Origin: a virus
Reading direction: 5' to 3' (one strand)
DNA: 64,000 nucleotides
Virus record (IMG/VR): IMGVR_UViG_3300021142_002226
Span: 1 to 64,000 of that record
Shown here: positions 1-63,333 of the stretch, piece by piece
How positions within the stretch are numbered: the stretch's first letter is position 1
How the letters are laid out: each line of letters starts with the position of its first letter
Position numbers and translations under genes: made by a program
The notes under the pieces: model-generated
Seen by the model: the letters and a program-made list of their open reading frames with translations, nothing else
What the model was told of the DNA's origin: nothing
Database searches by the model: none

Positions 1-142
1 TACCTGATGTACCATTAATACCTGAAGTTCCTGATGTACCATTTGTTCCAGAAGTTCCACTAACACCTGATATACCATCGATACCGTTCAAACCATTTAA
101 TCCAGATGAACCTGAAGAACCTGATGTACCTGATGTACCATC
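1..142. repeat. Direct repeat, copy A, inside collagen-like gene
   Basis: Bases 1-142 are repeated without a visible difference at 1018-1159, an offset of 1,017 bases (339 codons, 113 triplets). The repeat may extend left beyond the window. It shows that the Gly-X-Y region grew by segmental duplication, not only by triplet slippage. Confidence 0.8.
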
Positions 143-12912: not shown

Positions 12913-13333
12913 CATCTTTATTAACCGTAACTGGTGCGTTATCAATTTTTTTGCTAATCAACTTATCAGTGGTTAAATCAAATTTTAATGTTTTCAAATC
13001 ATTAAACTCAGTTTCCAGAAATATTCTTTTTAACTCATTCATTTTCTGTGCAAACAAATCTTGTTTCTTCTCAATCTCAAGATTGTATTCAATTATATTA
13101 GATACAATATTGAACAAATCAACAAATGTGGTTGTATTTGAATAAAGTATATAATATATTGTACCATCATCATTATCCTTTTGCTTTTTAAGGATAGTTT
13201 CTGAAGATACTTTATCCTCAGGTATAGCCCAATCCTTTTTAATCATAAAGTCGATAACCTTGAATTCTGAGCTATTGATTCTCAAACCAAAAATATTATC
13301 TGGATATTTTTTAAATAATTCATCTATGCTCAT
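12902..13333 (-). CDS. Hypothetical protein, 143 aa
   Basis: A soluble charged protein (MSIDELFKKYPDNIFGLRI) with a long helical region in the middle (NIVSNIIEYNLEIEKKQDL) and a highly charged C-terminal tail ending NKDDDK. No family recognised. Start overlaps the stop of the upstream membrane-protein gene by four bases. Confidence 0.6.
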   Translation of the reverse strand: MSIDELFKKYPDNIFGLRINSSEFKVIDFMIKKDWAIPEDKVSSETILKKQKDNDDGTIYYILYSNTTTFVDLFNIVSNIIEYNLEIEKKQDLFAQKMNELKRIFLETEFNDLKTLKFDLTTDKLISKKIDNAPVTVNKDDDK

Positions 13334-13533
13334 ATTCCAATTCCTTTTATTAGTGATGTTATTATAATAGATAATGATATTGCAATATACACCAAATCTT
13401 TTGACGTATACTTTAATTTCACAGGCTCTGGTTTTATAAAATTAGATATGAATATAAAACCATGCCTAAATATAACAAAACAAGAAAGAAAAAAAATTAC
13501 ATATAGTAATTTATTTAATATTAATTGTACCAT
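13330..13533 (-). CDS. Small two-pass membrane protein, 67 aa
   Basis: Two hydrophobic helices (LLYVIFFLSCFVIF and VYIAISLSIIITSLI) joined by a short basic loop. First gene of the overlapping cluster that runs to 11546. Small two-pass proteins of this size can be holins, but it is far from the amidase-like gene at 18010, so the function is left open. Confidence 0.6.
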   Translation of the reverse strand: MVQLILNKLLYVIFFLSCFVIFRHGFIFISNFIKPEPVKLKYTSKDLVYIAISLSIIITSLIKGIGI

Positions 13534-13570
13534 ATTTTTATTTTAAAAGTAAGAAATTAAATCCAGTAAG

Positions 13571-14047
13571 TCAAGTTTTGATATTAAAATATTTACTTTG
13601 GATCTTGTAGAGTTCGATAAATATGTCGTATTCTGACCTTGTTTTAATTTTGTCTATAGATATAATGTCAGACCAGAAATCACAAATTTTTGCCAGTAAG
13701 ATAGCGTCTTTGATTTCAGAATTGTAGAATATATCCACAAAATAGTTTAGGTGATAATAATAATGTTCTCCTTTTTCTTTGAACATTAATTTTTCCTTTT
13801 CGAATTCTTTTATTGTTTTATCCCAACACCATTTGAAATGTGTTGATATAAGTTCATCATTTATGATTATATCATCACCGAGGTATGTTTCATTGATAAG
13901 TTTAGCTAAAGAGATAGTAAAATCTCTAAATAACTCAACCTTTTCTATGCTTACACCGTTTAAATTATTCAAATAATTTAATTGATCATAAGTCAATGGC
14001 CTTGAGAAATAATCAATAAATTTATTTGCTGGTTTATGATTGTCCAT
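13571..14047 (-). CDS. Hypothetical protein, 158 aa
   Basis: The open frame reaches a GTG at 14083, but those first codons lie inside a terminator hairpin (14059-14082). The ATG at 14047 (MDNHKPANKFIDYFSRPL) is therefore the true start. The protein is helical and rich in aromatic residues (HFKWCWDKTIKEFEKE, HYYYHLNYFVDIFY), a pattern I associate with a family of unknown function in T4-like marine phages. No catalytic motif seen. Confidence 0.65.
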   Translation of the reverse strand: MDNHKPANKFIDYFSRPLTYDQLNYLNNLNGVSIEKVELFRDFTISLAKLINETYLGDDIIINDELISTHFKWCWDKTIKEFEKEKLMFKEKGEHYYYHLNYFVDIFYNSEIKDAILLAKICDFWSDIISIDKIKTRSEYDIFIELYKIQSKYFNIKT

Positions 14048-14058
14048 ATAAATAAATA

Positions 14059-14082
14059 TGGACTTCTTTTTCAAGAAGTCCA
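14059..14082 (-). terminator. Hairpin terminator with GAAA tetraloop
   Basis: A 10-bp perfect stem (TGGACTTCTT paired with AAGAAGTCCA) closed by GAAA on the minus strand, followed by TATTTATTTAT. It lies just past the 565-residue gene ending at 14109 and fixes the start of the next gene downstream of it. Confidence 0.7.
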
Positions 14083-14108
14083 CATTATTTAAATAAACAT
14101 GTTTAGGT

Positions 14109-15806
14109 TTAGAATAGTTTTCTCATTCTTTCTATTTGCCTGTCGATTTTTTCGTTCAAATCACCACCACCTGGCTTCTTTTTACCACCTTTTGATTTAC
14201 CAGTAATACTTGTTTCTTCGTAAGGCTCATCTGTAACAATAAGTGGATTTGGTTTGAAGAACGAATCTCTTTGACCTTGATTAGCAATAGAAGCATTTAT
14301 TATAGCTTCACCTGTTTTCTTAGTGCTTTCGTGATCAACATTAGCTTCTTCACCTACCTTAGATACGTCACGTTTTCTTGAGTGGCCAGTTTTAACTTCC
14401 ATTTCAACTCTATCTTTATATGATTTTGGTACATCATTTTGGAAATCAAGATTCAAGTTATTAAAAGCACCCAAATATTGTTTGTCAATATCTTTTTGGT
14501 GATCGCTTTCCATGTCTGGATTGAATTTATAATTTACTCTATCTTCAGCTTTTTGCTGAACAGTCTTTTGACTATCCTCAGCGGCTTTCATACCATCTTT
14601 AGATTCTTTTGAAGACTTTTTGTTTTCAGCGTCAACATTCTTTCCTTTTTTAGGTGTGAACTTAGGAAGTTCATTTTCAGCCAAACCTAACAATGAAAAC
14701 TCAGGTTTTACCATAACGTCATGTTCAGCTGTTTCTGGTGTATTAACGCCAGATATTTCTTCACCTTCATAATATAAAGCAACCCCAGCAAGGTTTTGAT
14801 AACTCATAGTTATTTTATCTTGAATCCATGGCTCAAGATCAGCATCTGGTTGAATTTTATCTAAGATTTTTTCAACAAATTCTTGAATTTCATGCAATTT
14901 TGCTATTGACATATGACCTTCTGGTTCTTCATCTATTTGTTGTGTTAACATAGGTGAACCTTCCCAACCCTCTTTATTTAAAAACTTCTTAGCAAATGGA
15001 TCAGATTGACGCATATGCTGTGCGCTTACTGTATGTACATGACTTTCATCTGTACCTTCTTCTTTAATAGGTGCCATAGCCATTGATTCATCAGGTAATT
15101 CTTTAGTCTGGATATCTTTAATTAAACGACCAATCATTGGTTTTACATTATCAGGTATACTACCATGCATAATTTTATTACCTTTCTTGGTTACTGCTAT
15201 TTTAATATGGTTTCCATAATTATGAAAACTCAACATAGCATATGGAAATGGTTTTTCCCCACCATGTTGTACACTTTTTTCAATATGACCCTTTGTATTA
15301 TTACCAAAAGCATCAGCAATTTTATCAACCATTTGTTTGATCTCAGGTTGTACATGTTTTGCAAAAGTACCTGCCTGATTCATTGATTTAATACGGCCCA
15401 TATCATCGCCATTTTTTTCTTGATCAGGATACTTTAACATGGCGGTATTGTGAGCAGCATATTTTACTTCTGGTGATAATTCATCCATAGGTTCTTCTTC
15501 AAGAAAAGGACTATAATTTTCATCAGCCATGTCCTCATCCATTTCAGTAGATTCGTTCCAATTTTCATTGATCCATTCTCTTAAGTAAGAACCACATTCA
15601 TTTTGGCTCGACATGATAGATTCGTACATATCTTTACAGATATCATCATCTTCAAGCATAGCTGCGCAATGACCTTCATAGGTATCGCCTTCTTCAAGAG
15701 ATTCAGGTAAAAACCCCTCTTGTTGCATAACTTCATACATACATTCGTTCAAAGCTTCATTTGTAGCCATTTCACTCATGCAGTGTCTCATTGTTTCTAA
15801 ATTCAT
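14109..15806 (-). CDS. Large acidic protein, possibly virion-internal or structural
   Basis: A 565-residue, highly acidic, helical and low-complexity protein. The first 80 residues carry Cys and Met-rich helices (MRHCMSEMATNEALNECMYEV). A central segment, near residues 315-350, reads LEPWIQDKITMSYQNLAGV and resembles a short conserved module seen in structural or capsid-associated proteins of T4-like marine phages. The C-terminus is basic (KGGKKKPGGGDLNEKID, then RQIERMRKLF). This charge layout fits a virion-internal or scaffold protein; that is inference. The gene is followed by a clear terminator hairpin. Confidence 0.6.
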   Translation of the reverse strand: MNLETMRHCMSEMATNEALNECMYEVMQQEGFLPESLEEGDTYEGHCAAMLEDDDICKDMYESIMSSQNECGSYLREWINENWNESTEMDEDMADENYSPFLEEEPMDELSPEVKYAAHNTAMLKYPDQEKNGDDMGRIKSMNQAGTFAKHVQPEIKQMVDKIADAFGNNTKGHIEKSVQHGGEKPFPYAMLSFHNYGNHIKIAVTKKGNKIMHGSIPDNVKPMIGRLIKDIQTKELPDESMAMAPIKEEGTDESHVHTVSAQHMRQSDPFAKKFLNKEGWEGSPMLTQQIDEEPEGHMSIAKLHEIQEFVEKILDKIQPDADLEPWIQDKITMSYQNLAGVALYYEGEEISGVNTPETAEHDVMVKPEFSLLGLAENELPKFTPKKGKNVDAENKKSSKESKDGMKAAEDSQKTVQQKAEDRVNYKFNPDMESDHQKDIDKQYLGAFNNLNLDFQNDVPKSYKDRVEMEVKTGHSRKRDVSKVGEEANVDHESTKKTGEAIINASIANQGQRDSFFKPNPLIVTDEPYEETSITGKSKGGKKKPGGGDLNEKIDRQIERMRKLF

Positions 15807-52505: not shown

Positions 52506-53063
52506 TTATATTCCTGAATTACATTCAGCAACCAATTTACACATGTATATAAAATAATCTTGTGAATAAATCCGTTTCATCATATTAATATCTTTATGTA
52601 CCCATTGTACATTTTCTTCAATATAACCTTTATTATTATCAATTCTGTCTAAAGACATTGTCATATTATTATATGTACTTTCTAACAACAAACCACTTAA
52701 AGAGCATAATTTATTCTGTTTTATAAACAAATCGTTTAGATAAGATATTGTTAGTTTAAATTCTATATTTCTAAGTTTAGCATCTCTTTTTATTTTACTA
52801 AAAACTTTACCAGGTATATTATTAAACCCTTTCCATGATGGGTTATTTTCTTTTTTTAATGAGTTACCACAATTTAAACATTTTGTTGATGTACCTTTGA
52901 TTAAAGAGTAACACGATACTTTTTTTATTTCACCACAAGAGCATTTACATGTTACTTTAGCTTCTTTTTCAATTATAATTTTTTCATCAATAATAGAATA
53001 TTCGCCATATTTTTGACCAATAGTAAATTTATTTGAATATTTAGATGTATTTTTACGTCCCAT
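52506..53063 (-). CDS. HNH homing endonuclease, free-standing
   Basis: A 185-residue protein. The N-terminal part has a zinc-ribbon-like set of cysteines (CKCSCG at 39-44, CLNCG at 62-66), probably for DNA binding. The C-terminal part is an HNH domain in the form seen in phage homing enzymes: CSLSGL at about 120, LDRIDNNKGY at 138-147 and NVQWVHKDIN at 151-160, with a helical tail. It lies 63 bases behind the reductase gene, after a perfect 13-bp hairpin. As with T4 HNH genes it is likely a selfish element that cuts a related phage genome near this site. Confidence 0.85.
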   Translation of the reverse strand: MGRKNTSKYSNKFTIGQKYGEYSIIDEKIIIEKEAKVTCKCSCGEIKKVSCYSLIKGTSTKCLNCGNSLKKENNPSWKGFNNIPGKVFSKIKRDAKLRNIEFKLTISYLNDLFIKQNKLCSLSGLLLESTYNNMTMSLDRIDNNKGYIEENVQWVHKDINMMKRIYSQDYFIYMCKLVAECNSGI

Positions 53064-53088
53064 ATTAATAAATAGTATAGTATTTCCA

Positions 53089-53119
53089 TAAGGTGTTGGT
53101 AGATGATACCAACACCTTA
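53089..53119. other. Perfect 13-bp hairpin between reductase and HNH genes
   Basis: TAAGGTGTTGGTA at 53089-53101 and its complement at 53107-53119 enclose a five-base loop (GATGA). It begins eight bases past the reductase stop codon. No T tract follows on either strand, so it is not a standard terminator; an RNA-processing site or a translation-control hairpin for the HNH gene is possible. Confidence 0.75.
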
Positions 53120-53126
53120 AGAAAAT

Positions 53127-53804
53127 TTATCTTACTTCGCACCCATTTGCACCACATGCAACCTCGCCTTTTTGGTCAGTATTGTCTTCATGTTCGATTA
53201 TTTTTGTTAAATCGATAGCTGTTAAATGATTTATCATTTCATCGTATTCTTCTTTAGTGATGTCAGTAAAGGGGGCTTGGATATAACTTCCACCATCATA
53301 AGGTAATACAGATAATCCATTATAGAATTCTTTATTATCCCACATCCATGTACCTACTGTATCCCATTCATCTTCCTTGATTGCAATAGTAGCTGATACG
53401 TTATGTGTGTTTTCACCCTTTCTATGGCCAGGTTTAATCCATTCTTTGCTAATTTTTTTAACTCTTTCCAACAAATTTATAGCTGATTCAGTTCTATAAA
53501 TTGAGTTTTCTGGTGCTTTTTGAGGAACACTGATAACAGCCGTATCGTGTGGTCTAAAATATTCATCTTCAATAAGTTCTGGATGATACATATATAAATA
53601 ATTATATATTGACTCATTTTTACCAACACGGATTCTACGGATGTAATAATCATTGTGCCATGCGTGAATACCTGAAGATGTACCAAGAACTAATGAGCTT
53701 GTATTATGCGATACAATACCGTTCTTTAATTGATAGTTTGGTGTATCCTCAACTTCAATATCCACCGTAAAGTTTTTCTTAATTTCCTTTTTAATTATTT
53801 TCAT
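53127..53804 (-). CDS. nrdJ: Ribonucleotide reductase class II, C-terminal part, with C-half of split intein
   Basis: A 225-residue protein. Residues 1-34 are the C-terminal half of an intein (DIEVEDTPNYQLKNGIVSHN at 15-34, with Asn34 as the cyclising residue). Residues 35-225 continue the reductase that stops at KPSG in the gene at 54866-58507: TSSLVLGTSSGIHAWHND resumes the conserved KPSG-TxS phosphate-binding loop. The end, ACGANGCEVR, carries the paired cysteines that re-reduce the active site. Protein splicing in trans with the N-terminal gene product is needed to make the enzyme. The ATG overlaps the stop of the endonuclease gene lying in the break. Confidence 0.9.
   Translation of the reverse strand: MKIIKKEIKKNFTVDIEVEDTPNYQLKNGIVSHNTSSLVLGTSSGIHAWHNDYYIRRIRVGKNESIYNYLYMYHPELIEDEYFRPHDTAVISVPQKAPENSIYRTESAINLLERVKKISKEWIKPGHRKGENTHNVSATIAIKEDEWDTVGTWMWDNKEFYNGLSVLPYDGGSYIQAPFTDITKEEYDEMINHLTAIDLTKIIEHEDNTDQKGEVACGANGCEVR
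53703..53804 (-). mobile_element. C-terminal half of split intein (reductase site 3)
   Basis: 34 residues with intein blocks F and G: FTVDIEVEDTPNYQLKNG, then VSHN before Thr35 of the extein, which would be the +1 nucleophile. Its partner is the 111-residue N-half at 54869-55201. Confidence 0.88.
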
Positions 53805-54816
53805 ATATTTTATTTTTTAATTCAATTATTATATTTTCTTTGTTTTTTTGATAATCATTCTCCCATACAGTGATAACCGCATAACCACGATTGATATATA
53901 GGTTGTCTTTCTCATTATCAATTAATCTCACTTCTTTTACTGTTTTATTAACTCTTGGTATTATTAGGTTTTCGTTATTAAAGATATTTTCCGAACCATG
54001 CCAAAAATCACCGTGATAATTGATAATTACTTTTATGTCTGGCAATATTATATCTGGATATAATATACTATTTTTAATTTTATAATTTTTCTTTTCTGAG
54101 TTGGTTAATATTATACCGTACTTCTCTTGATAACCTAAAATAGTCCCTTTGTAGAATTGTCTTATATCATTTTCCAATAATATTTGTCCTTTAGAAACAT
54201 TATCACCACACATTATGGCTTTAGTTGTTTGTATAACCCAATCATTATATTTAATTACACCATCAACTTCACCATATTTAGCTTTCCACCATTCAATATT
54301 TCTACTTTGGTGTTCGGTTAATTTATGTTTTGCTTCTTCGATATTACCTTTACACTTCTCAATCCAATAATTTAATCCCCAGGAAGATGTTAATCTATTT
54401 TTTTCACGATAAATATTATACTTCTCAACACCCTTATCGTAGTTACCACACTCTTTAGCAAAATTATCAATCGACCTAATGGATTTTACTTGATGTTTAG
54501 TTCTAATAATATCTATTTCTTCATTAGAGAACCCATTATTTTTTAACGTATCTTCACTAACAGATAATTTAGAGTTTTTTTCTAACCATTTGCTTGTACC
54601 ATCTTTATCACCAAATTTATCAACGTACCATTTCTTAGTACCACGAATTTTTAGTTTATTTTTGTAACTTAACCATCTCAAAGAACCCTCTTCTAAACCA
54701 TATTTTTTAATTAAATTATCTTCTGTAATAGCTGATAATTTTTTACGTTCTTCCCAGAGCCTTAAACCCTCAAATTCACCATACTTTTTAATCCAAGATT
54801 GTTTCACTGATGCCAT
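53791..54816 (-). CDS. Vsr-like homing endonuclease located in the split-intein break
   Basis: A 341-residue protein. The C-terminal nuclease domain (about 245-325) has the Vsr-like/EDxHD pattern: YPDIILPDIKVIINYHGDFWHG, then LIDNEKDNLYINRGYAVITVWENDY, the layout of very-short-patch-repair-related homing enzymes. The N-terminal part holds five copies of a W/Y-x-x-K-Y/F-G-x-x-x-G-x-x-x-W unit (near residues 8, 35, 63, 150 and 176), probably DNA-reading modules. Enzymes of this family are known to lie between the halves of genes broken by split inteins in phage metagenomes (Dassa and colleagues described such fractured genes). Position and family therefore agree. The sequence before it has a TATTTATATAAAA box. 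Confidence 0.85.
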   Translation of the reverse strand: MASVKQSWIKKYGEFEGLRLWEERKKLSAITEDNLIKKYGLEEGSLRWLSYKNKLKIRGTKKWYVDKFGDKDGTSKWLEKNSKLSVSEDTLKNNGFSNEEIDIIRTKHQVKSIRSIDNFAKECGNYDKGVEKYNIYREKNRLTSSWGLNYWIEKCKGNIEEAKHKLTEHQSRNIEWWKAKYGEVDGVIKYNDWVIQTTKAIMCGDNVSKGQILLENDIRQFYKGTILGYQEKYGIILTNSEKKNYKIKNSILYPDIILPDIKVIINYHGDFWHGSENIFNNENLIIPRVNKTVKEVRLIDNEKDNLYINRGYAVITVWENDYQKNKENIIIELKNKIYENN

Positions 54817-54828
54817 AACTATTCATTT

Positions 54829-54838
54829 TATATAAATA
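54829..54838 (-). promoter_or_regulatory. TATTTATATA box upstream of Vsr-like endonuclease
   Basis: Minus strand CTATTTATATAAAATGAATAG, with CTATT and AATAG also able to pair, about 18 bases before the ATG at 54816. It could give the endonuclease and the C-terminal reductase part their own transcript. Confidence 0.4.
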
Positions 54839-54865
54839 GTCTAACAACAGTGAAACGAACTGAAT

Positions 54866-57800
54866 TTAGAAAATTTTTATTAAAAAGTCATCATTTTCTG
54901 TGATTTCCTTAGCCTCTTTCCATGTACCATCAACCATCATAAATTTATGGTTTGGTGTACATTCAATAACAGTACCATCTTCCATAACAAATTCTATTGT
55001 TTCCTCATAACCATTTACAAACAACTTAGTTATAGTTTTTTCTTCATTTAGGTAATTATAAACTTTAATATCTTCTGTAACATCGTACCATTCACGATAT
55101 TCATTTAGTTTAGTACCCAAGTCAACACCATTTAATTTGAATATATCATCAAGTGATAACGTACCCCTATTTGTTCTAATTTCAGTAGATGGTATTTGGC
55201 AACCTGATGGTTTAACTGTTGTTGTTCTTGCGGCAGCATTTATACCTATAATTGCCGCAACACGAGCATTTTCTTCTTTTACAAGTTTAGCTGCTCCCTT
55301 AATATCGTAGTTTAATACAATACCAGAACCGATACCTGTCATTCCTACACCAATTAGAGCCTCTTTTTCAGTAGTTCTTTTCCAAATCTCACGAAGATAA
55401 TGGAAGTCTGTATAACCAGCCTGTAATGTACCTATAAATGCGGCAGCTTTAACTCTTTCGTTGTAGTCTTCCTGAGATTCAATATTTGAAACATTTACCT
55501 CACATAGATTACAGAATTGATATGGTCTTAGTGCAATTTCGCAACAGTTACCTGTAATTAATTTAGAAATTTGAAAACAATGTGTTGAATCAAATACAGA
55601 AATATCCCAAACATCCTCATATATATTTGTTAATTCAACGGATTCAACCTTTATTTGTTTATCATCATGAATATTATATCTAAATTTATAAGAATCTAAA
55701 ATATCTTGTTTATATTTATTTGTTAATTTAAACAAGGAAATAAAGTGTTTTATTGAACTTGTTTCACATATTCTTAAATCATATCTTGTAAATTCACTAT
55801 CATAACCATCTAATTTAGATTTAGATGTTTTTATTTTAGATTTTATACCGTAGAAACCTAATAATTCAGATAAATCATCCACTAATTGTTTATGTGAAGA
55901 TGTAAATGTTATTCTTTTTTGTGTTTTACTTACATTTCCATCTGAACTGAATAATGCATCAACTAAGCCCTTTCTAAAATTTTCTGAACCATCAACCCAA
56001 ACCGACTTAGGTAAACCATAGTTTTTATCCACATTACCAAACTTTTTAATATATAAATCAACCTCTTTATTATTTATAGATATCTCTTTTGTGTGTGTAT
56101 CAACAAGAACTATTTGCATCTCCTCCTCAATATTTTGGTGTTCCTTTTTGAATCTACGATTAAAATTACCATTAAATGTTATAACATTTGTTTTTAATGT
56201 ATTTAATAATTTATCGGATATATTAGATTCATCATCAGTGTCGGATACTATCATACCATATTCTGAATGTTCTTTTCTATTTGAAACCCAACCATCACCA
56301 ATAATCCAACCACATAAGAAACCATCATCATACCCACCTAAATTACCATCAAAAAGTTTATTCTCTCTAATTATTGGTAATTTATCACCGTTTGTTAAAT
56401 CTGGTGTTTTAACTTTAACATACTTTTCACCATCCCAAACGGGCCATTCATGTTCCTTAGTTGCAAAATATTCGGTACCATCTTCAAGTGTTAACTTAAC
56501 AAGTTGCTGATTTTTACCAGATAACCAACATTTTGCATCAGATATTTCACCATTTAAATTTTTAACTTTAAAACTTTTATCTTGCAACTCCTCAATAGGA
56601 AAAATCCCTTCTGTTGTTAACACTTTTGTACCTGCCCTTAACGATGGGTTGGTACCCCAATCCTTATCATTTGTGAAATAAATACCAGGTTCTCCAGAAC
56701 CAGACAACTTGATTCTCAACCAAAGATCATCAAAGAATTCTTTAGTTATTTTATGTCTTAGTAACACGGCAGAATTATTCGCTCTACCTCTTTGAGGGTT
56801 ATTTTCCCACCATGCACCAGATTTACAAGAAATCATTTCATCATCGTCAGCGGAGAATAAACAAATTAGTGCCGCTCTACGGATACCTCCTGCAAGTACT
56901 GCATCTGCAATATAACATACAATATCATGAACTTGAATTGGCGTTAATTTTTCACCATCTTCTATAGTATCTAATATTTTTTTAATATTATGAATACAAT
57001 CTTTAAGTGGTTGAGGCCCTGGAGCTTTACCACCAGATGTAATCAATCTTGCACCTTTTGGTCTAATATCTGAAAAATCGAATACTGGTGTTGAAGAAAT
57101 ATCACCTGTATATGATTTTAACAAGGTTTTGATAGCGTCAGCCCATCCTTCAATTGAATCAGATATCAAAAATCTTCTGTTTCTTGTTGGGTTTGGTTTT
57201 CTTATTTCTGGTAATTTTTCTACGTGATGTCTTTGTACTGAGTAACCAACACCAGTACCACCAAGCAATAAAAACATTACTTCACTAAAGCAATCAATGT
57301 AGTCTATTGGTAAATAACAACAGTTACCAGTCACAATACCACCAGATAAAACAAAACTTTTATCATCCTCAACTTCAAGACACCACACATCTTCTGATAC
57401 AAATGAATCATTAACTTCAGTCATAGACCAAGATGTGTTTGGTCTACTACCAATGTGATTTGTTATTGAAAAATCTTTAGTTAATGGTCGTTCACCAAAA
57501 TTTGTTATTTCACCTGTTAAATCAGAAATATTTGTAATATAATAACCACAAACCTCCAAATATTTTTTAAGAAAATCTATATGATCTTCCTGTGAAGATT
57601 GTATAGATTTATATTTAGATAATGTATTATTTTCATACCAATCTGGGTTTTTAGCACCGTCAGCGGATAAATAGCCATCCATAAAGGCTTTTATCATATT
57701 TAAACCATCTATATTTATATCTGGTGTTGTTTTTAAATATTTACCAGTATAAACCATAATATCCCCATCCAAACTATTAGAGGTAGATGTTTCAAACCCC

Positions 57801-58507
57801 ATTTCTTTGAATCTGTAAAGATATTTAGTTGCCTCATCTCCACACAATCTAACCATAGAATATTTAGCTTCACCATTCTTTTTAAGAAGTGTACCATCGC
57901 CAAATACATAACCATAACACCAATATAATCTTTCCATAGGTGTTGCACCATTATAGTCAAAATTTTCATTTTTTTGTGTTGGAAAGAGTGGTTTATTCAA
58001 TTCAAGTTCGGTTGTTTCAGAACCATCAAATAAAATCCATCTATGGTTTTTGGTAACTCTGATGGTTTTTTTACTTTTACCCCTACTAAAGGTGGCTGTT
58101 GATAGAAACTGTTTACCATAATTTTTAACAACGGCTGATTTCCAACTACCAGTATGTGTTAAAACAGTTATAATATCTCCATGTTCAAAATCCTTAAATG
58201 ATTTTGTTCCCTCCGATGTAATAAATTCAGTTTCCCTACCAAAACAGTTGTATATTCTGTTTGGTGAAATTTCAATTGGTTTACCGCCAAATTGAAGTGA
58301 TCTCATAGAAGGTAATACTTTTTTGTCATATACAAATTTGTATTTTTCTATAATTTCATCTCTTAACATAGGAAATTTCTTAATATGCATTTCCATGTTT
58401 CTTGTTACTAAATCTTCCCAGCTTTCTCTTCTTTCTTTCTCTGGTAAGTACTTGGCATACTTCATGTATACCGTAATGTCGCTTAAAATTTTTTGTGATA
58501 TATCCAT
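54866..58507 (-). CDS. nrdJ: Ribonucleotide reductase class II (adenosylcobalamin type), N-terminal part, with two inteins and N-half of a third
   Basis: A 1,213-residue polypeptide. Extein pieces are residues 1-87, 396-621 and 988-1102; with the 191-residue piece of the downstream gene they make an enzyme of about 619 residues. Reductase motifs: LLGGTGVGYSVQ, GGIRRAALICLFS, GSGEPGIYF, the finger-loop CCEIALRPYQFCNLCEV and VKPSG. These fit the monomeric adenosylcobalamin-dependent ribonucleoside-triphosphate reductase, which needs no NrdB partner. Intein 1 interrupts N-CCYLP, intein 2 sits just before the catalytic CCE loop, and the split intein follows KPSG. The enzyme supplies deoxynucleotides for phage replication. 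Class II is judged from motifs alone. Confidence 0.92.
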   Translation of the reverse strand: MDISQKILSDITVYMKYAKYLPEKERRESWEDLVTRNMEMHIKKFPMLRDEIIEKYKFVYDKKVLPSMRSLQFGGKPIEISPNRIYNCFGRETEFITSEGTKSFKDFEHGDIITVLTHTGSWKSAVVKNYGKQFLSTATFSRGKSKKTIRVTKNHRWILFDGSETTELELNKPLFPTQKNENFDYNGATPMERLYWCYGYVFGDGTLLKKNGEAKYSMVRLCGDEATKYLYRFKEMGFETSTSNSLDGDIMVYTGKYLKTTPDINIDGLNMIKAFMDGYLSADGAKNPDWYENNTLSKYKSIQSSQEDHIDFLKKYLEVCGYYITNISDLTGEITNFGERPLTKDFSITNHIGSRPNTSWSMTEVNDSFVSEDVWCLEVEDDKSFVLSGGIVTGNCCYLPIDYIDCFSEVMFLLLGGTGVGYSVQRHHVEKLPEIRKPNPTRNRRFLISDSIEGWADAIKTLLKSYTGDISSTPVFDFSDIRPKGARLITSGGKAPGPQPLKDCIHNIKKILDTIEDGEKLTPIQVHDIVCYIADAVLAGGIRRAALICLFSADDDEMISCKSGAWWENNPQRGRANNSAVLLRHKITKEFFDDLWLRIKLSGSGEPGIYFTNDKDWGTNPSLRAGTKVLTTEGIFPIEELQDKSFKVKNLNGEISDAKCWLSGKNQQLVKLTLEDGTEYFATKEHEWPVWDGEKYVKVKTPDLTNGDKLPIIRENKLFDGNLGGYDDGFLCGWIIGDGWVSNRKEHSEYGMIVSDTDDESNISDKLLNTLKTNVITFNGNFNRRFKKEHQNIEEEMQIVLVDTHTKEISINNKEVDLYIKKFGNVDKNYGLPKSVWVDGSENFRKGLVDALFSSDGNVSKTQKRITFTSSHKQLVDDLSELLGFYGIKSKIKTSKSKLDGYDSEFTRYDLRICETSSIKHFISLFKLTNKYKQDILDSYKFRYNIHDDKQIKVESVELTNIYEDVWDISVFDSTHCFQISKLITGNCCEIALRPYQFCNLCEVNVSNIESQEDYNERVKAAAFIGTLQAGYTDFHYLREIWKRTTEKEALIGVGMTGIGSGIVLNYDIKGAAKLVKEENARVAAIIGINAAARTTTVKPSGCQIPSTEIRTNRGTLSLDDIFKLNGVDLGTKLNEYREWYDVTEDIKVYNYLNEEKTITKLFVNGYEETIEFVMEDGTVIECTPNHKFMMVDGTWKEAKEITENDDFLIKIF
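54869..55201 (-). mobile_element. N-terminal half of split intein (reductase site 3)
   Basis: Residues 1103-1213 of the reductase N-part. Starts with Cys1103 (CQIPSTEIRTNRG, block A), has the block B TPNH at 1184-1187, and ends at FLIKIF with a stop codon. It has no endonuclease domain; a separate Vsr-like endonuclease gene fills the break. Confidence 0.88.
55547..56644 (-). mobile_element. Intein 2 in ribonucleotide reductase, LAGLIDADG type
   Basis: Residues 622-987 (366 aa). Begins with Ser622 (SLRAGTKVLTTEG), block B TKEH at 683-686, LAGLIDADG motifs LCGWIIGDG (731-739) and LVDALFSSDG (848-857), and ends LITGN before CCEIAL. Ser instead of Cys is the first nucleophile. The insertion lies directly before the finger-loop cysteine. 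Confidence 0.92.
57323..58246 (-). mobile_element. Intein 1 in ribonucleotide reductase, LAGLIDADG type
   Basis: Residues 88-395 (308 aa). Begins Cys88 (CFGRETEFITSEG), block B TKNH at 152-155, LAGLIDADG motifs CYGYVFGDG (197-205) and FMDGYLSADG (275-284), and ends IVTGN before CCYLPID. The extein joint regenerates RIYN-CCYLP, the first redox-cysteine region. Confidence 0.92.
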
Positions 58508-58582: not shown

Positions 58583-59977
58583 TTACTGGGTTGCGCCATT
58601 TTTTTCCCATTTAGATCTTAAATTTTCGTTCAAGCTTTTCTGACGATTTTGCTTATCTTTATCCTCGAAACCATGTATAGATATGACATCTTCGGTATCA
58701 ATAAGCATACGTTTATTGTCAAAAAGGCAGTTTTGGAAAATCATTCCATCAGAACCCATACGATTTTTCAATATGGTTATAGTCGCTCTACCATTTTCTT
58801 TCTGTTCCAAAGTTTTACCAACACTTACAATAAGGTGAGCAATTTGTGCTTTTTTCAAGTTTCCACCCATATTTTCGGTTTTTACAACCTCAACACTTGT
58901 GGATGATCTATTACCTTGTGTAGCTACCCAACTGGCAATGTTTAATTCTGCTGTCATTGATTCTACTTGGCGCATAATTTTACCTTCATTAGACCAATCT
59001 TCTGCTCCAGCAAATTCTTTTTCTGCTGATAAACAATCAAGATAATCAAGAATTAATACATCTATTTTATCGCCTTTAGAATTGATTCTTTTGATTGTAT
59101 TCTTAATTACACCAACGGTACAACCATCTGCGGACAATTTAAGTATATATAATTTACCAATACCTTCTTGATTATTGATAATCTTGATTTTCTTTTTAAC
59201 CTCATCTTTACGCAAAGATAATTCAGGTAACGGAATTTCTGTAGAACAAGAGTAATGTTTTCTCTGAACATCTTTAGGACTATCCTCAAAAAATATTTGT
59301 AATACATTCCTACCTGATCTATAGGCAGTATTAGCTATTTTGGTAAGCATTGTTGTCTTACCTACTCCAAGTGGCGCTATTATAAGTGCTAATTCACCCC
59401 TTGCTAAACCACCATTTGTAATGTTATCTATTCCAGTGATACCAGTTGGAATAGGTTCTCTATAATCATCAGATAAAACATTATCTATTTCAAATTCAAG
59501 ATCGATAGGTTCATCTACTTGTCTGAAAGTTAAAGCTTTCTTCAATGTTTCCTCGATATTATCAATATCTTGTAGAATACCTTTATCAAGTTTGCTTTTG
59601 ATACTGTTTACAGCATTTTTCAAAGATTGCATTTTACAGAATCTTTGCGCTGTATCTTGTACATTTAGATTATTGATTTTACATTTTTGTATGTTATCAA
59701 TGGTATCTAAAAGTTGTTGTTTAAATGTTTCTGCGTTCATCGGAATATTCATATTGACTTCCGTTCTCAACGCAGGGAAATTTAAAAGGCAATTATGTTC
59801 TTTGTAATATTCCTTAATAATGTGGGCTATCTTTGAAAAGGCCTCATTTTGAAAATATTGTTTATCAATAATATCAATAATTGATAAACCAAATTTGTGG
59901 TCTGTTATTATTTCATTAAATAATTGTAATTGATATTCAGGACCAAGATCACTTAAATTTGATATCTTTTCAACCAT
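58583..59977 (-). CDS. Replicative DNA helicase, DnaB/gp41-like
   Basis: A 464-residue RecA-fold hexameric helicase. An N-terminal helical domain (about 1-155) is followed by Walker A APLGVGKTT at 201-209, Walker B VLILDYLD at 307-314 and a VATQGNRSST sensor region. The family unwinds DNA 5' to 3' on the lagging strand and recruits primase. It lies in the replication cluster, followed downstream by the reductase after a 75-base gap. Confidence 0.92.
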   Translation of the reverse strand: MVEKISNLSDLGPEYQLQLFNEIITDHKFGLSIIDIIDKQYFQNEAFSKIAHIIKEYYKEHNCLLNFPALRTEVNMNIPMNAETFKQQLLDTIDNIQKCKINNLNVQDTAQRFCKMQSLKNAVNSIKSKLDKGILQDIDNIEETLKKALTFRQVDEPIDLEFEIDNVLSDDYREPIPTGITGIDNITNGGLARGELALIIAPLGVGKTTMLTKIANTAYRSGRNVLQIFFEDSPKDVQRKHYSCSTEIPLPELSLRKDEVKKKIKIINNQEGIGKLYILKLSADGCTVGVIKNTIKRINSKGDKIDVLILDYLDCLSAEKEFAGAEDWSNEGKIMRQVESMTAELNIASWVATQGNRSSTSVEVVKTENMGGNLKKAQIAHLIVSVGKTLEQKENGRATITILKNRMGSDGMIFQNCLFDNKRMLIDTEDVISIHGFEDKDKQNRQKSLNENLRSKWEKNGATQ

Positions 59978-59980
59978 AAA

Positions 59981-60427
59981 TTAACCAAGTTTATATTCTA
60001 AATAATTCAATTCAAGATTTTCTGTTTTAGAACATAACACTCGTTGTACACTTGTGATTATTTTATAGATATGCTCTCTGATGTCTACACTATATCTTAC
60101 AGTAGCTGGATATATTCGTGCATCAAATTCACGGTGAGCAATTTCTTTACCATTCATTTTTATTGTAAAAACAAACATATCACTATGTTCATTTTGTTCA
60201 AATGATGGGTTGTTAGTGTAATTGTTTCTGTTTTCATTCATAAAATCAAGAGTCTTATTTTTAAGGGATTCCTGAATTAGTCTTATGTTATCGTCAATAA
60301 CATATTTAAAATCTAAACTGTTCACAGCTTTATTATTAAAACCGAAAACATTAAACAATCTTTGAACAATAATATGTTCGTTGAGTTTCAACGTAAACTC
60401 AAAATTACGCTCTTTTCTTTCTTCCAT
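59981..60427 (-). CDS. Conserved hypothetical protein in replication cluster, 148 aa
   Basis: Small mixed alpha/beta protein (MEERKERNFEFTLKLNEHII) with a central DDNIRLIQESLKNKTLDF helix and strands near the C-terminus (DMFVFTIKMNGKEIAHREF). It is three bases upstream of the helicase gene. Its ATG lies four bases after the stop of the leftover rnh tail, so it was directly behind rnh before the endonuclease gene arrived. A helicase-loader role like gp59 would fit the position, but no motif supports it. Confidence 0.6.
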   Translation of the reverse strand: MEERKERNFEFTLKLNEHIIVQRLFNVFGFNNKAVNSLDFKYVIDDNIRLIQESLKNKTLDFMNENRNNYTNNPSFEQNEHSDMFVFTIKMNGKEIAHREFDARIYPATVRYSVDIREHIYKIITSVQRVLCSKTENLELNYLEYKLG

Positions 60428-60431
60428 AATC

Positions 60432-60503
60432 TTATATTTTTTTAGTTTTGAAGTAATTTTGTTCCTTCTTTATAATAGTAATAAAAGTTGACCAAAAAAC
60501 AAA
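60432..60503 (-). pseudogene. Leftover 3' end of rnh (23 codons plus stop)
   Basis: Read in frame on the minus strand, this segment encodes FVFWSTFITIIKK followed by EQNYFKTKKI and a stop, identical in all 23 residues to the C-terminus of the intact rnh gene (61257-61328). The DNA differs at 13 of 72 bases, in 11 codons, and every change is synonymous. No start codon or upstream coding part remains. It lies between the GIY-YIG endonuclease stop and the next gene and still has the original spacing to that gene, so it is probably the displaced original tail of rnh. Confidence 0.93.
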
Positions 60504-60504
60504 A

Positions 60505-61209
60505 TTATTTGTTTTTATTTTTTGCCCATCTTTCTTTAGCTTTCAAAGACATTTTTTTCTTAGTCTCTTCAGACATATTTTTTTTAGATTCAGACATTTT
60601 TCTTTTAGTACCTTCACTCCTTTTTTTTCCAATATTACTTTGAGAAATTTTTAATTTAACATCTTCAGTTATGATAGTACCTTTTTTAATATCTGACATC
60701 TTTTTTTTATATTCTTCACTTCTGTTCAAAGCGGAAAATCTAATTTTTTCTTTAGTTTCATCCGACATCTTTTTTTTAGATTCAGACATCTTTTTTTTCG
60801 TATCTTCAGAGTGTTTTTTACCTAACTGACCATCAGACATTCTTTTTTTAATATCGTCAGAAACAATCTTACCTTTTCTTGCCTCAGACATCTTTTTTTT
60901 TGTATCTTCATTATGCCATCCACTCCAACCACCATCACCATTTTCAATTTTTAGGTTTGCCCACTCTTCTGATTCAACAATATTATATAATTGACTGTAA
61001 TAAGTACCTTTCTCTTTTATCTCATCATTATTATAACCCACAAATAAAATTTCAGTTATAATATCTTTTGTTTTTATTTTGTGTTTTTTTATATGATTTA
61101 GCCAAACTAAACCACTACCTATATATTTGAAGGGGTCTTTTATGGTTTTTCCCAAATATTTTAAACCTTTTGGACTTGTTTTAATATAAAGATATATTTT
61201 TTGTTTCAT
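60505..61209 (-). CDS. GIY-YIG homing endonuclease with NUMOD3 repeats
   Basis: A 234-residue protein. The N-terminal domain is a GIY-YIG nuclease (IYLYIKTSPKGLKYLGKT, then FKYIGSG, with a catalytic Glu later). From about residue 105 follow at least seven NUMOD3 units (KKKMSEARKGK, KRMSDGQLGKKHSEDT and others), which are DNA-contacting helices of the T4 SegA/I-TevI group. The stop codon directly abuts the leftover rnh tail. The gene is not in an intron: rnh upstream remains complete with its own stop. It is a free-standing homing gene that has entered just at the rnh 3' end. Confidence 0.93.
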   Translation of the reverse strand: MKQKIYLYIKTSPKGLKYLGKTIKDPFKYIGSGLVWLNHIKKHKIKTKDIITEILFVGYNNDEIKEKGTYYSQLYNIVESEEWANLKIENGDGGWSGWHNEDTKKKMSEARKGKIVSDDIKKRMSDGQLGKKHSEDTKKKMSESKKKMSDETKEKIRFSALNRSEEYKKKMSDIKKGTIITEDVKLKISQSNIGKKRSEGTKRKMSESKKNMSEETKKKMSLKAKERWAKNKNK

Positions 61210-61231
61210 ATTTATAATTTATTATAAATAT
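61208..61231. promoter_or_regulatory. Perfect 10-bp inverted repeat overlapping the endonuclease start codon
   Basis: ATATTTATAA at 61208-61217 and TTATAAATAT at 61222-61231 enclose TTTA. On the minus-strand RNA the 3' arm covers the first two bases of the ATG. T4 homing endonuclease genes are known to use start-region hairpins to block early translation; the same purpose here is inference. Confidence 0.6.
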
Positions 61232-61256
61232 AAGATGACCAGTAAAAGATTAAAAG

Positions 61257-62282
61257 TTAGATTTTTTTAGTTTTAAAATAATTTTGTTCTTTTTTGATTA
61301 TAGTTATGAACGTACTCCAAAAAACAAAATATTCATCGTCATAACTTGGAATATAATTTATAATTCCATCTTCTTTTATCATTTTCATTACTGAATTAAT
61401 CCCACCTCTACCTTCTGGATCCATTGGCTCATTAACCATAACACTTATTGTTTCCATTAACTCTTCAGTTACATTCGGCGATTCAAGATTAATAATCTTG
61501 TTCATTACAGCAAAGTAATCGTTACCATATGTACCCCATTTTGTTTTACCTTCAACAATTGTTTTCAACATATTATTGTCAGGTTTTTCACTTAACAATT
61601 CATTTGTACGTTCAATTATCCAATCAGAATCTTTTTTTTCTTTTCTCAATTCTGGAAATAATTTCAACGTTTTTTCTTCACCAATGTTTTGTAAACCAGA
61701 AATATTATCACTGCTATCACCAGCAATCATTTTTATTAATCCAACATTACCTTGATGATAATCAAAATAAGTATGAAAATTTTTATCTGTTATCACAACC
61801 TTTTTATTCAAAAGATATATTTTAACATCTTCAGATATTAATTGTAATAAATCTTTATCCGAACTCAATATTAATTTGATTTCGTTTGGTGAATTTTTAC
61901 AGTAATAAGCAATACCGTCATCAGCTTCACATTCAGCAACTTCAACTTGGCGAATATATAACTCCTCAAGGTATTGTTTAATTCGAATACGTTGTCTACC
62001 AAGATCATAAATTTGTTCTTCAGTATATTGTGAGTTTCGATTTTGTTTGTAATATGGATAATATCCTTGACGATATTTTTTTGAGTTTTCACCTTCCCAA
62101 AACACCACAACCTTTGTTATCCCATATTCGGAATAAAATCTTTTTATGGTGTTTATAAAATGAAAAATGGCACCAACACTACCATTTTCTGTTTGGGTAT
62201 TTTTGGTGCCATGAAATCCAATCTTTAGCAAATTCTCACCATCAATCAACAAACTGTTAACCTTAGGTTTCTTAATCTTCAT
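61257..62282 (-). CDS. rnh: RNase H / 5'-3' flap exonuclease (T4 rnh-like), with recoded 3' end
   Basis: A 341-residue FEN-family nuclease from the ATG at 62282; the frame runs to a TTG at 62312. Motifs: LLIDGENLL with D14, VVFWEGENSKKYR and YPYYKQNR, the acidic cluster AECEADDGIAYY, LILSSDKDLLQL, and the helix-3-turn-helix MIAGDSSDNISGLQNIGEEK. T4 RNase H removes lagging-strand RNA primers. The last 23 codons plus stop (61257-61328) are duplicated, with synonymous changes, behind the GIY-YIG gene. The start overlaps the uvsX stop by 11 bases. Confidence 0.92.
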   Translation of the reverse strand: MKIKKPKVNSLLIDGENLLKIGFHGTKNTQTENGSVGAIFHFINTIKRFYSEYGITKVVVFWEGENSKKYRQGYYPYYKQNRNSQYTEEQIYDLGRQRIRIKQYLEELYIRQVEVAECEADDGIAYYCKNSPNEIKLILSSDKDLLQLISEDVKIYLLNKKVVITDKNFHTYFDYHQGNVGLIKMIAGDSSDNISGLQNIGEEKTLKLFPELRKEKKDSDWIIERTNELLSEKPDNNMLKTIVEGKTKWGTYGNDYFAVMNKIINLESPNVTEELMETISVMVNEPMDPEGRGGINSVMKMIKEDGIINYIPSYDDEYFVFWSTFITIIKKEQNYFKTKKI

Positions 62283-63333
62283 AATCAATTGTTCCTCTAT
62301 CTTCTGTTTCAATAATTTCTAAATCATCAACATTATCAATTACCTCACCCATTTTTGCAAATTGAGATGCGATATAATTCATATGTTCTAATTTATATTT
62401 TGCGATTGCTTCTTTACCCTCATTATTTTCTTTACTACCACGTCTGTCACTTTTTAGGAAACCTTGTGGTGTAATTATAATGTTTGAATCTTTATATCCA
62501 AGACCAGTGATGTGATTTTTATCTACAGTGATTTTACTTCTAACAGCTATGTTAATAGTTCTACCGTTTTTAGTTGCATCAATCTTTGAAATACCAGATT
62601 CAGCTTCATTACCAAAGCGGAAAACAAGTGTAGATGATTGGTATAATGCTTCACCACCTTTTGGTTTCATCTTAGGTTGTGCACCATAAACCAATGGAAT
62701 TTGTACCCAAGGTAAATTACATACAACTAACCCAGCAAGATAAGGTGAATTTTCTTTTCTTGTTTTATTGATTCTTTGGTTTATACCCATATTGATTTTC
62801 TCAGCAAGAACACCAGCGGTATGTTGTTTACCACCTTTACCTTCATAAGTCATTTTACATGGTACTGAACCGACAGAATCCCAAAAGAAACAAACATCTC
62901 TTTTTAATTTACCTGATTCTTGTGCATCAAGAACTTTATTAATTTTTTCAGTAACTAATTCTATCCAATCAAGTTCATCGAAATAAAGAAAGTCACCAAT
63001 CCAATCTTGTTTTTCTTCATCCCAATCAACCTGGAAACCCATCAATTTAGCATGTTCCCATGACCATTTCTTTTCAGTTATAAGAAACACAGGCATGATA
63101 CCTTTCTTTTGCGCATCCACCGCTGAAGCAATAAGTGCACTTGTCTTACCAGCATTTGAATGCCCTATAAACATGTTAATGTGTCCCATTGCAGGGCCTG
63201 GGAGACCTGTTGCTTCTAAGAATGCTTCACCACATTCAAGAAATAAATCTGGTTTATATTTAGTTGTACTCACACCAAGTTCTTTCTTTAAATCATCAAG
63301 TGAGTATTCAGTTTTTTTAATGCCTTTAGCCAT
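62272..63333 (-). CDS. uvsX: UvsX/RecA-like recombinase
   Basis: A 353-residue RecA-fold protein with Walker A GHSNAGKTS at 57-65, the Walker B-type strand DVCFFWDSVGS, and the VVCNLPWVQIPLV region and KITVDKN strand typical of UvsX. UvsX forms filaments on ssDNA and drives strand exchange and recombination-dependent replication, working with gp32, whose homologue lies directly upstream. The C-terminus is acidic (IETEDRGTIDYED), as in RecA. Confidence 0.92.
   Translation of the reverse strand: MAKGIKKTEYSLDDLKKELGVSTTKYKPDLFLECGEAFLEATGLPGPAMGHINMFIGHSNAGKTSALIASAVDAQKKGIMPVFLITEKKWSWEHAKLMGFQVDWDEEKQDWIGDFLYFDELDWIELVTEKINKVLDAQESGKLKRDVCFFWDSVGSVPCKMTYEGKGGKQHTAGVLAEKINMGINQRINKTRKENSPYLAGLVVCNLPWVQIPLVYGAQPKMKPKGGEALYQSSTLVFRFGNEAESGISKIDATKNGRTINIAVRSKITVDKNHITGLGYKDSNIIITPQGFLKSDRRGSKENNEGKEAIAKYKLEHMNYIASQFAKMGEVIDNVDDLEIIETEDRGTIDYED

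Follow-up and report, generated by a model that had tools for sequence, protein, structure and literature searches.

Results

The rnh end occurs twice around an endonuclease gene

How can a mobile gene occupy the end of a phage replication gene while that gene keeps its protein, and why does the gene end then stand on both sides of the newcomer, with the same residues in different codons? These questions are raised by the rnh locus of the window, the whole 64,000-nucleotide stretch analysed here (positions 1-64,000 of IMGVR_UViG_3300021142_002226, whose full virus record has 190,177 bases). The order of the locus on the minus strand is: UvsX-like gene, rnh, spacer, endonuclease gene, second rnh end, 148-aa gene and DnaB-like helicase gene (Table 1). 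The Rnh protein matched Pfam PF02739 (4.1e-28) and, by profile against the PDB, Taq polymerase (1.2e-19) and T4 RNase H (1tfr, 2.6e-7). Codons of rnh are numbered from 62276 (adding 2 gives the numbering from the ATG). Family searches (Pfam, PHROG) with the 148-aa gene gave no family.

Table 1 Features of the rnh locus in the window.
Feature	Coordinates	Strand	Remarks
UvsX-like gene	62272-63333	-	directly before rnh
rnh, FEN-type 5'-3' exonuclease, T4 RNase H relative	61257-62282	-	341 aa; ATG at 62282
Left copy of exact 14-nt repeat ATTTTGTTTTTTGG	61317-61330	-	direct repeat
Attached tail: final 23 rnh codons and stop, respelled, judged cassette-borne	61257-61328	-	comparison with displaced copy
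Attached version of frozen element, TTCATAACTATAATC, codons 323-327	61296-61310	-	comparison of rnh ends
Spacer, rnh stop to endonuclease ATG	61210-61256	-	47 nt; TATAAAT at its end adjoins the ATG
Homing-endonuclease gene	60505-61209	-	234 aa; N-terminal GIY-YIG-like domain and NUMOD3 repeats
Right copy of exact 14-nt repeat ATTTTGTTTTTTGG, cassette edge	60492-60505	-	includes final base of endonuclease stop codon
Displaced native rnh tail	60432-60503	-	repeat and relatives' tails
Synonymously frozen 15-mer TTTATTACTATTATA, retained in displaced copy	60471-60485	-	comparison of rnh ends
148-aa gene	59981-60427	-	directly after rnh in insert-less relatives
DnaB-like helicase gene	58583-59977	-	next after the 148-aa gene; family match

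Both copies of the rnh end translate to FVFWSTFITIIKKEQNYFKTKKI followed by a stop. A first-pass annotation of the locus had described the same 23 residues encoded with 13 of 72 bases different, all synonymously, and this is borne out (the differences fall in 12 codons, none nonsynonymous); its claim that the attached copy restores the protein holds as well, rnh retaining its protein end with identical residues. The pair forms a 74-nt direct repeat of 82% identity (60432-60505 and 61257-61330); read along the minus strand, both copies open with the same 14 bases (ATTTTGTTTTTTGG). The four-base gap from the displaced copy to the next gene, which the annotation had taken as a mark of the original arrangement, is present as described but is not diagnostic: the next gene begins 1-28 nt after rnh in relatives without the insert, with a slight overlap in two of them. 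The same junction is found identically in four other contigs (L002, L003, L004, L006) and near-identically in L007.

A 30-residue tail/head scan of the 47 minus-strand ORFs in 8001-64000 returned this pair alone (score 122, threshold 52), and in tail scans that included the low-complexity stretch below about 4.9 kb the additional matches were confined to that stretch. Positions 1-4900 of the window consist of extended low-complexity repeats in which both strands have long open frames, and this confuses scans for tail duplication.

The inserted gene encodes a GIY-YIG-like endonuclease with NUMOD3 repeats

The endonuclease matched PHROG 314 (homing endonuclease, 1.3e-16), and its first 115 residues alone matched the same family (2.8e-6) at profile positions 175-302, which overlap positions 179-392, the part of PHROG 314 matched by a protein of this phage that Pfam assigns to GIY-YIG. 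NUMOD3 (PF07460) was found above its curated cut-off (4.8e-12), and six stretches of NUMOD3 came up when E values to 10 were admitted. In a PF01541 search at E up to 10 the endonuclease was not among the matches; its homologue L074 gave SegE_GIY-YIG (0.003) and GIY-YIG (0.013), both below cut-off, and hhalign against a set of phage GIY-YIG proteins gave a weak result (probability 1.2, E 0.044). The structure model (pLDDT 56) has the predicted order b-b-a-b-a at low confidence, an order that fits the GIY-YIG fold, and no fold reached E 0.001 when this low-confidence model was searched. The assignment to GIY-YIG proposed in the annotation is thus backed by the shared PHROG profile region and the low-confidence topology, but is weaker than stated there, no Pfam GIY-YIG match being found. 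NUMOD3 is clear, the direct Pfam comparison negative, the profile comparison weak and the model poor; the enzyme is called GIY-YIG-like here.

In 8001-64000 of the window and the pieces L184-L190, TATAAATA was about 8 times commoner at a distance of 5-90 bases ahead of an ORF start than in other places (18 and 60 sites); we take it to resemble the T4 late promoter. One copy, at 61209-61216, extends into the start codon of the endonuclease.

Neither a displaced tail nor a displaced head accompanies the two further genes of the record that bear NUMOD3 (91350-91964 and 135830-136531). Applied to the other seven pieces of the record, the tail/head scan gave five matches: four of them lie at 5' ends, where the N-termini are similar, the fifth is a repeated protein end, and none adjoins those two genes. 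In L188 (reverse-complement 13035-14350) a 341-aa ORF has final residues that appear again in the frame after it (score 98), which looks like a repeated domain, not a displaced tail. The neighbourhood of the endonuclease homologue in Vibrio phage D486 showed no displaced topoisomerase tail. In another part of the window, 52506-58507, there are intein-like insertions in a ribonucleotide reductase gene of the adenosylcobalamin type; a gene whose end is Vsr-like (53791-54816) lies after the reductase and before its apparent C-terminal part, and 52506-53063, for which no family match was obtained, may be another endonuclease.

The displaced copy is the native rnh end

Relatives were collected from IMG/VR with the Rnh protein (60 loci) and with an alignment (80 of 162 relatives kept). 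Together with the window, 74 loci had both the rnh end and the next gene and gave 39 distinct junctions: 26 insert-less, 10 duplicated (five lineages) and three distant (L047, L055, L140), the last being set aside for synonymous and identity counts. Loci were dropped where a contig end cuts rnh (L049-L052, L054, L059-L061, L135, L137, L138), where they repeated another on the same contig, or where they had no clean rnh end (L030, L136), no stop (L139) or no next gene (L005); three additional insert-less loci (L149, L151, L158) stand outside the counts. In L015, L026, L034, L118 and L127 an ATG in frame with the next gene falls within the end of rnh, 28 nt past the start of the frozen element described below, and the true start of that gene may lie within rnh in these five loci.

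Over codons 317-331, 25 of the 26 insert-less tails were closer to the displaced copy of the window than to its attached copy, and one tied (mean identity 39.4 of 45 bases for the displaced copy, 33.9 for the attached). This makes the displaced copy the native one, and the check proposed in the annotation, namely that endonuclease-free relatives should match the displaced spelling, came out in favour of its polarity. The displaced copy of L010 was nearer in 16 of the 26 comparisons, though it agrees with L008 in 45 of 45 bases; that of L033 was nearer in 13 (two ties) and that of L012 in only two (five ties), which we read as owing to decay of these copies. A search for a donor with a near-identical protein but the attached spelling found none (seven contigs, all known carriers), and a search of host-genome contigs gave no relative.

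Two before/after pairs show a break in divergence at the tail

If the attached tail was imported with the endonuclease, an abrupt synonymous break is expected at the cassette, which simple drift does not predict. L010 (one 4.6-kb contig) and L008 are sisters in the tree of the rnh body (support 100/100), and their codons are 294 the same and 23 different in the body against 8 and 7 in the tail (Fisher p 9e-5), all seven differing tail codons being synonymous. The displaced copy of L010 and the start of the next gene equal the native L008 sequence in 82 of 84 bases, and ahead of it lies an endonuclease remnant (66 of 82 aligned bases as in the endonuclease of the window). L033 (five loci with one junction sequence) and L034 are sisters as well (support 99/98), with 247 codons the same and 66 different in the body and 6 and 9 in the tail (p 0.0017); L033 compared with L043 also differed between tail and body (p 0.036). 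The nine insert-less control pairs, picked by hand, all had a tail less divergent than the body. The L020 clade compared with L089 showed no significant tail break (p 0.30). The two pairs L010/L008 and L033/L034 thus support the import of the tail, as far as sequences can tell, and agree with the claim of the annotation that the attached copy is the newcomer.

One site was occupied repeatedly and left with scars

Five lineages carry the duplication or its scar. On the rnh-body tree (35 rows, L047 among them) the duplicated state requires five changes, at least four of them forced by well-supported branches, and occupied and empty alleles of the one site occur among close relatives (the two sister pairs). 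The displaced-tail remnants of the window, L010, L033 and L012 lineages outscored all of 500 shuffles. With a longer native query, displaced copies start at most 8 bases from codon 317 in five of six comparisons; in the sixth, L033 with L034, the start is 16 bases further in.

The fifth lineage is represented by gaps in L020, L023 and L024. These are similar to the displaced copy of L033 (3, 0 and 0 of 1000 shuffles, respectively) and to that of the window (18, 0 and 5), the likeness in L023 and L024 taking in CAAATAA, the end of the endonuclease of the window. There was no resemblance to the displaced copy of L010 (685, 359 and 102 of 1000); with that of L012 only L024 matched (134, 264 and 2 of 1000), and the gaps of the L020-L024 clade gave no match with the native L089 tail.

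The endonuclease is intact in the window, L002, L003, L004 and L006; it is a pseudogene in L007 (7021-7836: ATA for ATG, 13 nt fewer, frame shifted), where both tails persist; it is a short remnant in L010; and L033, L012 and L020-L024 have no evident remnant of its coding part. These stages can be ordered from intact through dead and short remnant to no evident remnant. Homing genes pass through a cycle of gain, degeneration and loss, which the stages of the locus resemble by analogy, here with a lasting scar.

The displaced tail holds a synonymously frozen 15-mer

Codons 323-327 (TTTATTACTATTATA) read TTT ATT A[CG]T ATT [AG]TA in 25 of the 26 insert-less relatives, L009 ending in ATT. Among 328 five-codon windows none has lower synonymous variation (0.017; the mean is 0.417), and after amino-acid correction the value is 0.037, compared with 0.479 in the final 34 codons and 0.93-1.14 in the other 34-codon blocks. 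For uvsX, taken from 25 of these loci, the final two blocks gave 1.03 and 0.91, the lowest block (0.72) being internal; gene ends are therefore not generally frozen.

In the attached tail these codons are changed at every one of the 10 duplicated junctions: TTC ATA ACT ATA ATC in the window, TTC ATA TCT ATT ATA in L010, TTT ATA ACA ATA ATA in L033, TTT ATT ACA ATT ATA in L012 and TTT ATT ACC ATA ATC in L020-L024. The displaced copies retain the element in three of the five lineages (the 15-mer intact in the window and L033, the L008 form in L010), with one change in L012 and partial decay in L020-L024; in L033 it is retained nevertheless with an in-frame stop directly after it. The association of respelling with duplication is striking, but the events are few and it is not significant once kinship is removed (independent pairs: three agree, none oppose, one undecided, p 0.25). 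TTC ATA is common to the attached tails of the window and L010 and absent from all 26 insert-less phages; these attached tails agree in 39 of 45 bases and the corresponding displaced copies in 37 of 45, a hint from the sequences that the two tails belong to one cassette family.

Several explanations of the freeze were considered. The window holds two matches to the 15-mer at up to 2 mismatches (2.69 expected), and 190 kb hold one exact and two one-mismatch sites, so that a genome-wide promoter was rejected for want of enrichment. An overlapping reading frame was also rejected, the frame of the next gene having a stop at the element (L026 only), and recombination homogenising the region is unlikely because codons 321, 322 and 329 vary (0.55, 0.60 and 0.52). 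The displaced tail showed nothing outstanding in RNA structure (z -1.08), and a sigma-70-like scan gave no minus-strand site over the displaced 15-mer. The 8-mers of the 15-mer are 2.4-6.7 times commoner upstream of ORFs, on 2-5 upstream sites each and without composition control; one of the five upstream TTACTATT sites is the rnh site, and two seem by eye to follow terminator-like hairpins. The 15-mer is perhaps a promoter or another cis element of the following genes.

Discussion

A probable cassette with a replacement gene end

From these comparisons, a mobile endonuclease cassette with a replacement tail probably invaded the 3' end of rnh. The cassette would consist of the replacement tail, the 47-nt spacer and the GIY-YIG-like/NUMOD3 endonuclease gene, entering at codon 317; rnh would then end with the imported tail, giving the same protein in other codons, and the native tail would follow the endonuclease. 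The polarity, the divergence break in the tail, the repeated occupation of one site and the decay are observed in the sequences; the cutting, the repair route and the immunity of the new spelling are what we infer from them. By the likeliest route, the enzyme would cut the uninserted rnh end and repair would copy the donor allele including its tail, a candidate cut region in an uninserted L008- or L026-type rnh end lying within or near TGGTCAACTTTTATTACTATTATA. The respelled tail would keep Rnh whole and probably escape recognition, and the cassettes would later die and be deleted, the imported and the displaced tail remaining.

A difficulty for this reading is that attached tails keep lineage-specific residues (GSFIS in both L010 and L008), and the donor is therefore expected to be a close protein relative with a long-respelled tail. 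In lineages bearing the endonuclease the tail would be free to change, being released from the cis element and under pressure against cutting, and the respelled tail would then move with the endonuclease gene to uninserted kin.

The strongest competitor of import is a relaxation after insertion, which we hold to be rather unlikely: the cassette would have duplicated the phage's own tail, the displaced copy being frozen by the cis element and the attached copy left to drift synonymously, so that the respelling would be a by-product of lost constraint and neither an import nor an avoidance of the target. It accords with codons 323-327 being the least variable stretch in the insert-less relatives and with their change in every attached copy, the 15-mer being retained behind the endonuclease site in the window, L010 and L033; it also explains the lineage-specific residues of the attached tails. 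Against it, the attached tail of L010 differs from L008 in 7 of 15 codons, with 2 of 84 bases different in the displaced copy and 23 of 317 codons in the body, which is too much for drift in equal time; moreover, two serines in this tail have switched codon family, and the 15-mer is not a repeated motif. The same process may nonetheless act in donors before transfer.

The direct repeat flanking the endonuclease gene would also be expected had recombination duplicated the rnh end in tandem and the endonuclease entered between the copies afterwards; we consider this very improbable, since the differences are all synonymous although one copy had left rnh, and since the divergence break in L010 and the endonuclease remnant between its copies fit one arrival. 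Still less credible, to the point of being nearly discarded, is the reverse polarity, with the far copy brought by the endonuclease and the attached copy native. Only the 3' part of the attached tail of the window speaks for it, agreeing with the distant insert-less L047 in 31 of 33 bases (27 for the displaced copy), a likeness that we treat as a sequence lead to the donor lineage only; the nearness of the insert-less tails to the displaced copy, with one tie, and the match of L010 with L008 oppose it.

Within the import reading, we suggest tentatively, as a possibility somewhat below even, that the cassette exploits an overlap of coding and regulation: the frozen element, perhaps a promoter or operator for the genes that follow, would be a stable target from which the phage cannot escape, and the duplication would split the jobs of protein and element. 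The attached tail would give the protein in a spelling ignored by the enzyme, and the displaced tail would keep the element for the next genes. If this is true, loss of either half would be difficult for the phage, and both would stay behind even when a cassette has died. With the frozen 15-nt stretch one can test whether nucleotide constraint, besides protein constraint, is exploited by homing enzymes, and the locus allows a direct test of why synonymous respelling accompanies homing.

Comparison with known systems

Group I introns home by site-specific insertion within a gene with co-conversion of the exons, and elements that integrate into tRNA genes carry a copy of the gene end that restores the gene. 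The rnh cassette shares with the former the site-specific insertion in a gene and the replacement of flanking bases, and with the latter the carried gene-end copy; it differs from both in that neither splicing nor an integrase is involved, a carried respelled copy mending the protein end.

The seg and mob genes of T4-like phages are also free-standing endonuclease genes beside replication genes, with co-conversion of the flanks and possible involvement of neighbouring promoters; they lie between genes or split them, and their cut sites are far from the gene, free-standing phage endonucleases being described as cutting hundreds or thousands of bases from their own gene (PMC2988022). Neither duplication nor synonymous change is mentioned in the main text of that review, and the consulted text of PMC10448857 mentions neither synonymous, recode nor C-terminus, with two unrelated mentions of duplication. 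The titles and opening lines of abstracts found in searches of open-licence papers yielded no phage case of this architecture, which is no proof of absence.

The annotation knew of no named system of this type, but one exists in the mobile-ORF (mORF) gene hybrids of fungal mitochondria. According to the consulted part of PMC3630166, such hybrids occur in Glomus sp. mitochondria at atp6, atp9, cox2 and nad3, the first case cited being atp6 of Allomyces macrogynus. As in the phage, an endonuclease ORF (GIY-YIG in atp9) lies in the 3' part of the gene, a foreign C-terminus is fused in frame with few or no residue changes, and the native C-terminus is displaced; there the displaced one is 91-98% identical to a close relative and the inserted one 64-81% (PMC3630166, same part). 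The hybrids differ in residing in mitochondrial DNA, in that three carry LAGLIDADG enzymes and two are in phase with the host gene, and in their expression by RT-PCR (PMC3630166, same part). The phage locus has in turn an endonuclease with its own ATG, a frozen 15-nt stretch, recurrent occupation and deletion scars. Its C-terminus is fused in frame and appears foreign by the divergence break, its displaced native C-terminus is nearest to uninserted relatives (25 of 26 for the window; 82 of 84 bases for L010 with L008), and it resides not in a mitochondrion but in a viral record (190,177 bases) that has UvsX-like and DnaB-like genes.

The before/after pairs indicate that a free-standing endonuclease gene can inhabit a replication gene without splicing by carrying the end of that gene along, and the arrival, death and loss of such elements can be read from their scars. 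The gene-hybrid mechanism of fungal mitochondria is thereby extended to a phage, and we regard the rnh locus as a phage variant of that principle, with unusually clear scars and a nucleotide-constrained site.
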